A stretch of 61,942 nucleotides of DNA. Source: Planctomycetota bacterium. Lineage in GTDB: Bacteria; Planctomycetota; Phycisphaerae; Phycisphaerales; UBA5793. The position numbers and the translations under genes were made by a program. Shown piece by piece: positions 29,814-51,597 of the stretch. The stretch is from assembly GCA_963205185.1 (NCBI GenBank), contig CAUJHZ010000039.1, positions 1 to 61,942 on the forward strand, written 5' to 3'. Numbering within the stretch: position 1 is the first letter of the stretch; every line of letters begins with the position of its first letter. Below the pieces are notes generated by a model that was not told where the DNA came from, searched no databases, and was given only the letters and a program-made list of their open reading frames with translations.

Positions 29814-30413
29814 GTGGATCGCGCACACACCATACCGGACGCCTGGTCATCGCCCAAGGCCGGTCTTATCGGCCTTGTCTCCGGGTCGCTGGCCGCCGGC
29901 GCCATGTACGCGTGGCAGAACAGCGTCGAACTCACCGTCGCCACTTTCATGATCGCCGGCTACACCGCCAGCCTGTGGCTGCACCTCAGCGCGGCCGCTC
30001 GGCGATACGGCAACCATTACCACCATCTCAAGCAGATGGAAATCAACCGCCGCTCCCTGCGCTTCCGCCGCATGCTCACCGACTTCGCCTTCTGGTGGTC
30101 GCTCATGTTCGGCCTGGCGGTGATCGGCGGAGCCGCGTGGTACGGCGGCCTGCGCAGCACCACCACCATCGGCTGGATCGAACTGTGCTGGGCCCTCGTA
30201 ACGCTCTTTCTCAACTTCGAAGTCACCGTGCTCGAACCCACCACCCGCTGCCGCCACTGCGGCTATCAACTCATCGGCCAACTCGACCCCAGCGACGCCG
30301 CCCAGCGCGTCCGCTGCCCGGAATGCGGCAAGACCTGGTCCAAGAGCGACCTGTGCCTCATCCCCCCGGGCTATCACGTCGTCACCACGGACCCGGTCAC
30401 CCGCGCTGCGTAG
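29814..30413 (+). CDS. Membrane protein with C-terminal zinc ribbon
   Basis: A 199-residue protein with about four hydrophobic segments (AGLIGLVSGSLAAGAMYAW; VATFMIAGYTASLWL; FAFWWSLMFGLAVIGGAAWYGG; IGWIELCWALVTLFL), then a zinc ribbon CRHCGYQLIGQ...VRCPECGK. This ribbon type is typical of Phycisphaerae. Start is GTG 29814; GAGG lies very close before it, so the exact start is uncertain. It follows the histidine kinase by 59 bases; function unknown. Confidence 0.8.
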   Translation: MDRAHTIPDAWSSPKAGLIGLVSGSLAAGAMYAWQNSVELTVATFMIAGYTASLWLHLSAAARRYGNHYHHLKQMEINRRSLRFRRMLTDFAFWWSLMFGLAVIGGAAWYGGLRSTTTIGWIELCWALVTLFLNFEVTVLEPTTRCRHCGYQLIGQLDPSDAAQRVRCPECGKTWSKSDLCLIPPGYHVVTTDPVTRAA

Positions 30414-48029: not shown

Positions 48030-48030
48030 G

Positions 48031-48156
48031 TAGGGTGCTGTTGAGGCTCTGCGAAACGCACCAATCGGCGGCCCACTCGCCAACGACGGTCATCACCTGT
48101 CGTGCGTCCGCCTCGGTGCGTTCCATTTCGCTTCGCTCCATTGCACGGCACCCTAC
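48031..48156 (+). repeat. 126-bp REP-like repeat, copy 1
   Basis: It begins TAGGGTGCTGTTGAGGCTCT, one base after the dinG stop, and ends ...GCACCCTAC. The two ends form an imperfect inverted repeat (TAGGGTGC at both outer ends, ACGCACC/GGTGCGT further in), a REPIN-like layout. Confidence 0.9.
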
Positions 48157-48169
48157 AAGACCGCGAATG

Positions 48170-48295
48170 TAGGGTGCTGTTGAGGCTCTGCGAAACGCAC
48201 CAATCGGCGGCCCGCTCGCCAACGACGGTCATCACCTGTCGTGCGCTCAACCCGGTGCGTTCCATTCCGCTTCGCTCCATTGCACGGCACCCTAC
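48170..48295 (+). repeat. 126-bp REP-like repeat, copy 2
   Basis: Same length and ends as copy 1 and nearly identical in its middle (a few substitutions). Thirteen bases separate the copies. The transposase stop lies 50 bases beyond. Confidence 0.9.
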
Positions 48296-48345
48296 AAAGC
48301 CGCGAAGCGCACCATATCTCACTCCATCTGCGCCACCGCGAGTCA

Positions 48346-48873
48346 TCAATCCAGGTCAAGATCGACGCTTGGCCCCGCCGTACCCCAATCCGCCGACAGG
48401 ACGCCGCGCCGAACGAACTTGTGCAGTGACGAATACGGCCAATCGATCGGTCGCAACGCATACCCATGTTTCACTGGGTTGTAGTGGATGTAGTCCACAT
48501 GTCGCGTGTAATCAGCCTCGTCGCGAATGACATGCTCCCAGAATCGCCTCTGCCAGATTCCGCGCTCACTTCGCGCCTCTCGGCTGCGAGACCGTGACTC
48601 GCCTCGGGGCATCGCGCGGCTGAATGCACTTTTGATCCGGCTCCATCGCGCTGAGTAATCAACGTCGCCAGGCGGCAGCGTCCAGATGGTGTGCAGATGA
48701 TCAGGGAGAACAACGATTGCATCGATGTGAAATGGAAGCTTCCGTCTAACCGCGTGGAAGGCGCCACGCAGGTTTTCAAGACGATCAATCAACAGAGTCG
48801 CCCGGCGATCAAGCAGCGTGAGCGTGAAGAAGTACGTGCCGCCGGCCACACGCCAGCGCCGATAGTGTGACAT
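48346..48873 (-). CDS. REP-associated tyrosine transposase (RAYT)
   Basis: A 175-residue Y1 HUH transposase. The HUH motif is H59-L-H61 (VVLPDHLHTIW), and HVDYIHYNPVKHGY holds the likely catalytic Tyr (Y128). GGTYFFTLTLLDRR and ERGIWQRRFWEHVIRD are hallmark stretches of the RAYT family. RAYTs are single-copy genes linked to dispersed REP repeats rather than ordinary insertion sequences. TACAAT ends six bases before the ATG, and part of that box belongs to repeat copy 3. Three repeats flank it, two beyond its 3' end and one at its 5' end. Confidence 0.93.
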   Translation of the reverse strand: MSHYRRWRVAGGTYFFTLTLLDRRATLLIDRLENLRGAFHAVRRKLPFHIDAIVVLPDHLHTIWTLPPGDVDYSARWSRIKSAFSRAMPRGESRSRSREARSERGIWQRRFWEHVIRDEADYTRHVDYIHYNPVKHGYALRPIDWPYSSLHKFVRRGVLSADWGTAGPSVDLDLD

Positions 48874-48879
48874 GACGCC

Positions 48880-48885
48880 ATTGTA
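48880..48885 (-). promoter_or_regulatory. -10 box (TACAAT) of the RAYT gene overlapping repeat copy 3
   Basis: TACAAT-GGCGTC-ATG on the minus strand. Its first two bases are the outer end of the 126-bp repeat, so repeat placement helps create the promoter. Confidence 0.5.
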
Positions 48886-49009
48886 GAGTGCTGTTGAGGC
48901 TCTGCGAAACGCACCGGTTCATCGCCCCAAGCGCGAATCAATGGGTTGCACGCTGATCATCCAACCCGGTGCGTTCCATTTCGCTTCGCTCCATTGCACG
49001 GCACCCTAC
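48884..49009 (+). repeat. 126-bp REP-like repeat, copy 3
   Basis: Same length and ends as copies 1 and 2 (one base differs in the first eight), but a different 50-base middle. Its right end (CCTAC) supplies the TAG stop codon of the zinc-ribbon gene at 49006-49737. Confidence 0.88.
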
Positions 49010-49737
49010 AAAATCGCCCCGCACTCCGGACACACACCGGAAGTGTTGCCGCGGAGGTCGTAACCGCAATGTTCGCACAGTCCGGCGCGGGGGATCGTGA
49101 AGCGCGGGCAGATGAAGGCGGCGAGCACGCTGAGCAGGCACACCGAGATGAATGCCGGCACGGCCGAATCGAGCGGGTAATACAGTGATCGGCTCCTTGT
49201 CATGTATGCGATGGTGACGATCGCCGCGCCGCCGTAGACCAGCGGCAGGGCGTATCGCAGATCGCGCCGCTCCAGCAGCGGCACCACGATCAGACTGCTG
49301 CACATGCCCACGACGCAGCCGACGAAGAACGAAACTGGCAGACCCAATGCCACATCATCCGCCGAAACCGAAATTCCTCCAAACGCCGACGGAGTCACGA
49401 GCAGCGCGAAGAGCATGGCCATCATCCCGAGGCCACCCATGGCAAAGATTGATGTCGCGACGAGCCGCGGCACGCGTGAAGCGACCGACAGCGATCGCGC
49501 CACCGCAAAGCCGCACGTGAGGCAGCGGCTGTCGCGCGCCACGTACTCAAGCCGTGCGCCGCAGGCAGCGCACGCCACACAAACGAAATCAACGTGGTGG
49601 ATGATTTCGCTCGGAGCATCGCCATGCCCCCGGTTCCACTGCGACCACTGCGGCAGCACGCGCTCCTGAGCCGGCGAGCCGCCCCGCCGCCGCAGGGCAA
49701 AGGCATGCACGAAATAGCGCCGCAGCCGCGACATCAT
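49006..49737 (-). CDS. Four-helix membrane protein with two zinc ribbons
   Basis: A 243-residue protein. The first ribbon (CVACAACGARLEYVARDSRCLTCG) is N-terminal, four membrane helices follow (for example LVATSIFAMGGLGMMAMLFALLV), and a second ribbon (CEHCGYDLRGNTSGVCPECGAIL) ends the protein. The ATG at 49737 overlaps the stop of the upstream gene (ATGA). The stop codon is formed by the end of repeat copy 3, so its natural C-terminus may have been altered. Function unknown. Confidence 0.82.
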   Translation of the reverse strand: MMSRLRRYFVHAFALRRRGGSPAQERVLPQWSQWNRGHGDAPSEIIHHVDFVCVACAACGARLEYVARDSRCLTCGFAVARSLSVASRVPRLVATSIFAMGGLGMMAMLFALLVTPSAFGGISVSADDVALGLPVSFFVGCVVGMCSSLIVVPLLERRDLRYALPLVYGGAAIVTIAYMTRSRSLYYPLDSAVPAFISVCLLSVLAAFICPRFTIPRAGLCEHCGYDLRGNTSGVCPECGAIL

Positions 49738-50486
49738 GATGTGACTCCGTGGATTTCGACTCCACATTCGGGGCACACGCCGGTGGTGTTGCCTTGGAGG
49801 TCGTAGTTGCAGCTGGTGCAGCGGCAGCGCGCCGCGCGCCGGCGGTGGCGCGCCTCGCGCAGCACTAAATCGAAAAGCCTGCACAGCGCGACGATGACGA
49901 ACCAGAAGGTGCCGTACGCAAGTTGGCCCGTCCAGATGGGGCGGAAGGGGAGAACAGTGGCGACCGTGAATGGATCCGGCGGATCCGCAATGATCATCGC
50001 CGTTGCCGGATCGGGATCACACCAGTCGAACCACCGGCACCACAGCACCGGCACCGGCCAGCCGACTCCGGTGAATGTCTCGTAAGTGCGCTCGCCCTCC
50101 GCAAGGTCGGCACCGCGGCCAAGCGCATGGGGACTTACCCAACCAGGCCGGGTCGTCGACATCAATCCGCTCTCGCGCAGCAAATCATGATCCTGCCAGC
50201 GGCTTGCCGGAGTGGTTGTCGTCTCATACCAAAGCAGCCACGGGTACCGCTTCTCATCTCCGCTCTCATAGAAGGTAACGACGACGCGATCATCCATCTC
50301 CAAATGCACGGGCCACGGCCGTGGAAACCGAGTCATCTCTTGCCTCAGTCGCTCCTCAAACACCTCAGCAAAGCGCTGCGAAAACCACCCCGACCACGCC
50401 GCGTTGGTCGCGAGCAGCAGCGCCAGCGTCCACGCAAGGTTGGCCGCGAGCCACCGTCGCCAGGATGTCGCACCACCTTTGGTCAT
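49734..50486 (-). CDS. Zinc-ribbon membrane protein, tandem paralog 2
   Basis: A 250-residue protein starting MTKGGATSWRRWLAANLAWTL, with an N-terminal helix, an extracytoplasmic region, a second helix (YGTFWFVIVALCRLFDLVL) and a terminal ribbon CTSCNYDLQGNTTGVCPECG. The start overlaps the previous stop (ATGA). Its first ~12 residues and DNA closely match those of the gene at 50483, indicating tandem duplication. Confidence 0.82.
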   Translation of the reverse strand: MTKGGATSWRRWLAANLAWTLALLLATNAAWSGWFSQRFAEVFEERLRQEMTRFPRPWPVHLEMDDRVVVTFYESGDEKRYPWLLWYETTTTPASRWQDHDLLRESGLMSTTRPGWVSPHALGRGADLAEGERTYETFTGVGWPVPVLWCRWFDWCDPDPATAMIIADPPDPFTVATVLPFRPIWTGQLAYGTFWFVIVALCRLFDLVLREARHRRRAARCRCTSCNYDLQGNTTGVCPECGVEIHGVTS

Positions 50487-51217
50487 GGGCGCCCGCTTTC
50501 CGCTGCTGCGACTCCGCACTCCGGGCACACGCCGGTGGTGTTTCCTTTAAGACGATATCCGCAGGCGATGCACTGATTCCGGCGCAGGCGCCACCGTCGG
50601 CGCATGCTGAATCCAAGCGGGAACGCGGCAACGACGGCAAGCCACATCGCCGCACACAGCGCCTGCCCGGTCCATATCACGCCAAGGGGCCAGTTGCCTT
50701 CGATCACTGTAAAGCCGGGCGAACCGGCAGGGCGGCGCTCACCCTGCCACGGCACCGTCCGCATGCGCGACTCGAACTCGTCCTGTTGCCGACCCACCCA
50801 CAACAGGCGCATCGGCCAGCCGACTGCGGCGTAATGCGTCCAGTAGATCGGCTCCTCGACGCCTGCTTCCTGTTGCGTGATGGCGGCTCGAGTCGCGCGC
50901 TCGAGCCAGGCGGGCGCAACTTCTTCGTAGCTTGGTTGACGACTCGATACTTCTCGGACTGGTCGAATCGCAACTGTCCACGTCGCGACGGCCCGGGCGG
51001 GCACGACCTCCGTTACACGAATCAGAGTTGGTCCGCCGGGCGAAAGCACCGCAACCGTCATCCCCTGACGGCGAACCGTCTTTCGATTGAACGTCGACAC
51101 GCCGGCAGACTGAAACCAGACCGCCCAGGCAATGTTCGTGACAACCAGCAGCCCCGCGGTCCACAGGAACATGATCAGCGCCGTTCGTCGCCAGGATGTC
51201 GCACCGCTCCTGCTCAT
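50483..51217 (-). CDS. Zinc-ribbon membrane protein, tandem paralog 1
   Basis: A 244-residue protein starting MSRSGATSWRRTALIMFLWTAGLLVVTNIAW, helix-bounded, with a terminal ribbon CIACGYRLKGNTTGVCPECG. It is the first intact gene of the coupled set. Immediately upstream on the same strand is a broken ribbon sequence (51218-51297), so the cluster once had another member. Confidence 0.82.
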   Translation of the reverse strand: MSRSGATSWRRTALIMFLWTAGLLVVTNIAWAVWFQSAGVSTFNRKTVRRQGMTVAVLSPGGPTLIRVTEVVPARAVATWTVAIRPVREVSSRQPSYEEVAPAWLERATRAAITQQEAGVEEPIYWTHYAAVGWPMRLLWVGRQQDEFESRMRTVPWQGERRPAGSPGFTVIEGNWPLGVIWTGQALCAAMWLAVVAAFPLGFSMRRRWRLRRNQCIACGYRLKGNTTGVCPECGVAAAESGRP

Positions 51218-51297
51218 AGGCGCACTTGTTGCTCAGTCCCGCCCCCGCATCGGGCGACTGCCGCTCTCCTCGCCTTCAGACGATACCCGCGAGCCGG
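51218..51297 (-). pseudogene. Degenerate zinc-ribbon gene remnant
   Basis: Translated on the minus strand this reads ...RGYRLKARRAAVARCGG..., aligned to CGYRLKGNTTGVCPECGV of the adjacent gene. The DNA shares the stretch GCGGGTATCGTCTGAAGG with GCGGATATCGTCTTAAAGG at 50545-50563. Three of the four Cys are lost. It is a decayed tail of a fourth copy. Confidence 0.6.
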
Positions 51298-51597
51298 GCA
51301 TCGGCCCGGTGGGGCGCGGGGGCGGCCGGCGCCGCTTCCCTCCACTCCGTGAAACCCGCGGCTGCCGCCGACGGCTCCGGGAAGGCGCTCGACGCGCCCC
51401 ACCCGGACTCCCGGACGAAATGGGAACAAAAATCCTGCGCAAAACGTTGCTCTGTGGGCCATTGGGCGCATTCTTCTGGTACCATACCCGGCTGCCCCCG
51501 GCCAGTGCGTTATCAGACGGCCTCTCACAACCTCTGCCACGGCAACACCTTCCGGACATTTCTGTCCACCACAGCCACATACCTGGAGCATCGAAGC
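51298..51597. other. Gap upstream of the large secreted protein
   Basis: About 300 bases with no gene. GC-rich at first, then less so near 51430-51500, where a promoter for the plus-strand gene may lie (TACCAT at 51480 is the best hexamer). Nothing firm. Confidence 0.3.

Follow-up and report, generated by a model that had tools for sequence, protein, structure and literature searches.

Arrays of ribbon-tailed membrane protein genes in Phycisphaerales appear to be turned over gene by gene through ordinary homologous recombination at the DNA encoding the ribbon, a reading to which we assign a probability of about 70%. At the level of sequence, comparison of the arrays demonstrates expansion of the family, tandem arrangement, gain or loss of genes with breakpoints inside the ribbon, and exchange of tails. 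RecA-type homologous recombination is our inferred agent: in some arrays the repeat is both long and near-identical, and it folds in no special way. The window, i.e., the whole stretch of 61,942 nucleotides analyzed, belongs to genome G000 and was compared with the relatives G001 to G005, among which G003 is a member of the same genus.

The window array consists of three coupled minus-strand open reading frames (ORFs) running from 51217 to 49006, as the sequence-only reading had proposed, and both internal stop/start junctions overlap as ATGA. P0001 (50483 to 51217; 244 amino acids) and P0002 (49734 to 50486; 250 amino acids) encode ribbon-tailed membrane proteins, the former with two transmembrane segments predicted from hydropathy followed by a C-terminal ribbon. 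The claim that these two genes share their start is borne out by an exact 20-nt run on the minus strand (51186 to 51205 and 50455 to 50474), which has only these two copies in the window, and by the common residues GATSWRR. P0003 (49006 to 49737; 243 amino acids), previously labeled the first ribbon gene, is transcribed last of the three. It has mainly the tail in common with P0001 and P0002, and carries this tail on a different multi-transmembrane body with a second cysteine cluster in the N-terminal half. The proposed tandem family of three therefore stands for the ribbon but not for full-length paralogy. Upstream, the array is flanked by a divergently oriented long ORF without a Pfam or NCBIfam family match and, downstream, by a DinG/YoaA-like helicase gene. 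In G003, the orthologue of P0001 is 80% identical and that of P0003 scores 446 bits; to judge from dN/dS values of 0.35 and 0.33, respectively, both genes evolve under constraint.

A four-cysteine ribbon ends all three proteins, reading CIACGYRLKGNTTGVCPECG in P0001 (50513 to 50572), CTSCNYDLQGNTTGVCPECG in P0002 (49761 to 49820) and CEHCGYDLRGNTSGVCPECG in P0003 (49018 to 49077), each on the minus strand. The ribbons had been described as near-identical but are only alike, sharing 15 of 20 residues and 39 to 44 of 60 nucleotides per pair, and the CGY thought to be present in every copy reads CNY in P0002. Two CxxC knuckles are present in all three proteins at a spacing that fits a zinc ribbon, and the tail is probably zinc binding. 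An alignment of ten sequences, comprising P0001, P0002 and relatives from other contigs, reveals that a hydrophobic helix at the N terminus is followed by a variable part, in which GWP is invariant, and by a P-I-W-x-G-like motif that precedes a second helix; arginine-rich sequence and the ribbon complete the architecture. No Pfam or NCBIfam model reached its cut-off on the three ribbon proteins, the best Pfam scores below it being those of DZR on P0003 (22.7 versus 27.3) and DUF7129 on P0001 (18 versus 30), and the tail profile weakly matches the ribbons of NrdD and Nop10 (E values of 0.007 to 0.9). DZR (PF12773), DUF7129 (PF23455) and the rubrerythrin-like NF033497 likewise have two C-x-x-C knuckles about ten residues apart. 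Unlike in these families, the ribbon here is a C-terminal tail behind a transmembrane helix and a basic stretch. A structural model of P0002 built with nine relatives was poor (mean pLDDT of 63, pTM of 0.47), with helices at residues 5 to 50 and 185 to 220, and had no match in the PDB at an E value of ≤0.001 (best, 0.9). The arginine-rich flanks suggest that both ends are cytoplasmic, and because unlike bodies carry the same tail, this tail may be a shared cytoplasmic dock. We tentatively propose proteins of the inner membrane whose two ends lie in the cytoplasm and whose variable part faces outward, the ribbon serving all of them as a docking module. Among the titles and abstract openings listed from an open-access library, none deals with the ribbon-tailed family.

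The window array belongs, as a small and partly decayed example, to a large family of membrane proteins with ribbon tails in one genus of Phycisphaerales. Within its own genome, P0001 has 68 matches at an E value of ≤1 and 33 at ≤1e-3. Twenty-eight of the 68 have a same-strand neighboring match within 1.2 kb, compared to a mean of 1.5 and a maximum of 8 under random placement (200 draws). A tail profile of 60 residues (E value of ≤1e-3; 150 candidates scored per genome) matches 99 times in G000, 107 in G001, 25 in G002, 118 in G003, 52 in G004 and 26 in G005. Across the phylum, 31 of 392 drawn genomes match at an E value of ≤1e-4 when 16 candidates are scored per genome, and 27 of these 31 belong to the same order. 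A search with P0001 of the named genome contigs recovered no relative, and the viral collection contains one weak locus (L103; 52% over 31 residues).

Several arrays have features of their own. Six tandem genes at L050 (2351 to 6550) share an array-specific tail, in which five carry a shorter ribbon (CxYPRGTSPVCTECG) and one a variant. At L048 (5656 to 7308), a ribbon array is adjoined by two genes that, by their N termini, we take to be pseudopilin-like. The post-ribbon tail near position 4300 of L074 contains an insert, LRLGSGQAEPEE, with the look of a short dispersed repeat placed within a coding region. In planctomycetes, paralogue families have expanded massively and domains have been shuffled, according to a study of the Tuwongella subcellular proteome (PMC8567305). 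Paralogue expansion is likewise seen in G000 to G005; the passages concerned treat other families, and words beginning with zinc or ribbon are absent from the accessible text.

The evidence for exchange comes from individual gain, loss and replacement events. P0002 is absent from the same locus in G003, where the alignment leaves and re-enters inside the ribbon (window positions 49793 and 50510 versus L043 positions 5073 and 5038), with the P0001 ribbon on one side of the breakpoint and the P0002 ribbon on the other. Consistent with this, the G003 orthologue of P0001 ends after its ribbon in FKVHGDTA, which is like the P0002-type VEIHGVTS and not like VAAAESGRP. Given the P0002-like genes of G001 (118 bits) and G004 (144 bits), a loss of P0002 on the G003 side is more parsimonious than a gain.

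In G001, a 911-bp unit is present in two arrays on two contigs. The copies are 95% identical overall, and 207 of 214 same-residue body codons are identical. The unit begins just upstream of the preceding gene's ribbon, which it includes, and the likeness ends in its own ribbon, so that the two copies finish in different tails (16 of 23 residues and 7 of 16 codons in common). The shared blocks of two further units, B (between G000 and G003) and F (between G000 and G003 and between G000 and G001), begin inside the preceding ribbon, even though this ribbon belongs to a different gene in each case. Between G000 and G001, the copies of unit F are 94.2% identical, while the other blocks of at least 300 bp among the matches listed range from 67 to 85%. 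This suggests that unit F moved between species.

In each of 19 blocks of 350 to 1300 bp, one end or both come within 35 nt of a ribbon (mean of 6.6 and maximum of 12 in 500 random shifts), and in 8 blocks both do (mean of 0.7 and maximum of 4), in a count that is biased toward ribbon ends, as the smaller distance of the two copies was used and the null was drawn from one copy. Two of the eight both-end blocks, both with the orphan ribbon of L053, depend on this two-copy distance, and several blocks compare the same units. Moreover, 3' ends near a ribbon are expected for any homologous genes, and weight is placed on the 5' ends only. Given this bias, the case rests on the single events described above.

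The DNA of the tails was compared across 97 tail genes from chosen arrays in five genomes, which are part of all profile-matched tails; the gene at window position 30249, whose ribbon is longer, was removed from an initial set of 98 ahead of the pair counts. Among the resulting 4656 pairs, 153 are from the same array and have bodies that are less than 35% identical. In these, same-residue codon identity is 0.76 in the tail and 0.36 in the body, against 0.40 and 0.35 by chance, although a peptide or DNA sequence under strong conservation would leave tails more alike than bodies even if nothing were exchanged. Between genomes, tail codon identity is 0.60, again above chance. Individual arrays span values from 0.98 in L071 (three pairs) to 0.31 in L070 (one pair), with L053 at 0.88, L051 at 0.87 and the window at 0.52 (0.40 expected; n = 46). 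Homogenization is absent from L070 and a few other arrays and is weak in the window's own ribbons. Shuffling the array labels reached the observed tail identity in 0 of 2000 trials for G000, 17 of 2000 for G001 and 0 of 2000 for G003. DNA identity rises above background approximately 18 bases before the first cysteine and drops after the stop codon. A 33-nt tail motif, from which the P0002 ribbon differs by three mismatches, occurs with at most three mismatches 6 times in G000, 13 times in G001 and 7 times in G003, and 0 times in G002, G004, G005, G006 and G015. Folding of six junction strands revealed no special DNA structure of the ribbon block.

Tandem duplication followed by plain divergence, in which bodies diverge fast, purifying selection keeps the ribbon and no exchange is required, is the most probable of the alternatives, and we consider it unlikely. 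It agrees with the ribbon cysteines and CPECG being the most conserved positions and with the many pairs whose tails are ordinary in DNA, those of the window included. It leaves unexplained the array-specific synonymous identity, the in-ribbon breakpoint at P0002 and the tail swap between two nearly identical G001 bodies, the last of which already disfavors it.

There is a low probability that the events are artifacts, with draft assemblies from metagenomes wrongly joined at short repeats. The assemblies are drafts and few in number, repeats of the ribbon type invite misjoins, and some arrays reach the end of a contig or take up the whole of a short one (C49, 8.6 kb; C29, 8.7 kb). However, scattered base differences separate the two copies in G001, and the pair of window ribbons involved in the P0002 event agree at only 44 of 60 positions, too few to confuse an assembler.

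Slightly less probable still is selection on the tail DNA or RNA as a regulatory or translational-coupling element that fixes the sequence. Such an element would fit the arginine codon of DLRA tails, which is CGA in 22 of 22 cases compared to 21% in bodies, as well as the many array junctions that read TAG-GATCA-N(1-3)-CG-ATG or close to it. The tails nevertheless differ between arrays, the 33-nt motif is missing from G002, G004 and G005, and the six junction strands fold no better than shuffled sequences (z of -0.5 to 0.3). In integron gene cassettes, as in the ribbon arrays, each unit holds one gene and is delimited by an element repeated at the 3' end, and exchange here runs from ribbon to ribbon, between arrays and species as well; a site-specific cassette system of the integron kind with the ribbon DNA as its target is all the same highly improbable, as no attC-like folded site was seen in the same six strands and the ribbon repeat, unlike that of integrons, is coding.

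Homologous recombination at the ribbons, which we favor over these alternatives, has a partial counterpart in meningococci, where exchange at tpsA reportedly concerns one secreted-protein gene. In both systems, the 3' part of a gene takes part in recombination, as far as the accessible text on tpsA describes it (PMC3848433); here, in contrast to that account, many whole genes have one short constant end in common.

Upstream of P0001, an orphan ribbon remnant (RCPARGYRLK...; 51218 to 51310, minus strand) reads into a TGA overlapping the start of P0001 and is shared with G003. Its similarity to the P0001 ribbon was equaled by 28 of 1000 dinucleotide shuffles, which is marginal taken alone, and that to the P0002 ribbon by 757 of 1000. 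The syntenic stretch of G003 is decisive: its scores against the window P0001 ribbon, G003's own ribbon and the window remnant were each equaled by 0 of 1000 shuffles, which rules out chance similarity of the sequence at 51218. No remnant is found at the locus in G001 (best local scores of 9 to 11). As the remnant is common to the window and G003, it predates the split of these two genomes. The stretch had been described as a decayed fourth gene. The relationship is real, yet the similarity is of ribbon length only and without a gene body, so this description may overstate what is a ribbon-sized piece, and the remnant may be a recombination scar and not a decayed gene. A scar origin is favored because a half ribbon in G001 stands directly before unit F. 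This orphan half ribbon (PNYDLRATATGTCPECGAGITPPSTT-stop; L053, 1010 to 1085, minus strand) lacks the first CxxC and lies between an unrelated ORF and unit F, the transferred cassette. In G003, a tandem ribbon gene (L075, 2450 to 2560, minus strand) has tryptophan in place of the first ribbon cysteine (LWAACAYPIGSSRVCTECG), an instance of decay in progress.

Active duplication and decay, as earlier proposed for this locus, is thus upheld as ribbon-gene turnover, given the P0002 difference from G003 and the in-ribbon breakpoints. That it is active at the window locus is unsupported, since the tails there are only modestly more alike in DNA than chance and the remnant predates the G003 split; the window's own signs of the process amount to a single indel, the remnant and a weak likeness of the tails.

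Between the helicase stop and P0003, the gap is filled by a REPtron-like block (48030 to 49011) of a RAYT transposase and three copies of a REP pair. The transposase gene, P0004 (48346 to 48873, minus strand), matches NCBIfam NF047646 with 197 bits against a cut-off of 80, has a single copy in the genome and lies between inverted GTAG-headed repeats. The repeat at the P0003 end spans 48968 to 49009 on the minus strand, and the TAG of its GTAG head (49006 to 49009) is the P0003 stop codon (49006 to 49008), which agrees with the prediction that a repeat supplies this stop. The G003 orthologue of P0003 continues with GAAFEGGMKS-stop, and the REP/RAYT block is missing there. No such block was seen at the same locus in G003 or G001, and the loci of G003, G001 and G004 gave no RAYT match better than an E value of 0.3. 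In the favored reading, the element arrived later, directly behind the P0003 ribbon, where it cut the tail and supplied the stop. The block adjoins the stop codons of both flanking genes. In G003, its place is occupied by a small ORF of about 90 residues (MMTWSCDKCGRWISAPESM...; L043, 3990 to 4275), read by eye, that contains CxxC pairs and overlaps the end of the P0003 orthologue. RAYT genes with GTAG repeats on either side are known, and such repeats have been reported in Planctomycetes, often downstream of genes, according to the accessible parts of two studies (PMC2817692, PMC3733652). The window block resembles the REPtrons described there in its IS200-like RAYT between inverted GTAG-headed repeats. 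It differs in that the repeats are not abundant, with only three copies in the genome, all at the RAYT locus, and in that the hairpins are weak. Special REP hairpins were not supported, as the repeats fold no better than shuffled sequences.

In the proposed mechanism, each gene combines its own membrane body, probably with an extracytoplasmic part, and a common 3' DNA block that encodes the basic stretch and the four-cysteine ribbon. Exchange of one gene is possible because every gene finishes in a copy of this block. Recombination between two ribbons would remove, insert or replace one gene, from ribbon to ribbon, and would leave the frame, the tail and the transition to the following gene undisturbed. 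More speculatively, the ribbon tail could be both a protein module and a recombination handle, making up a homology-driven cassette system of Phycisphaerales in which the inner zinc dock stays constant and exposed envelope parts are swapped within and between species. We regard this broader view as doubtful; it likens the swapping of exposed envelope-protein parts to the variable-surface and receptor repertoires known elsewhere. Gene-by-gene exchange at the ribbons would explain the presence of up to about 100 ribbon tails per genome in one genus as well as the differences in array content between species, with a short constant gene end allowing clean whole-gene exchange. It would also make a common function of the tail testable, as unlike bodies carry the same tail.
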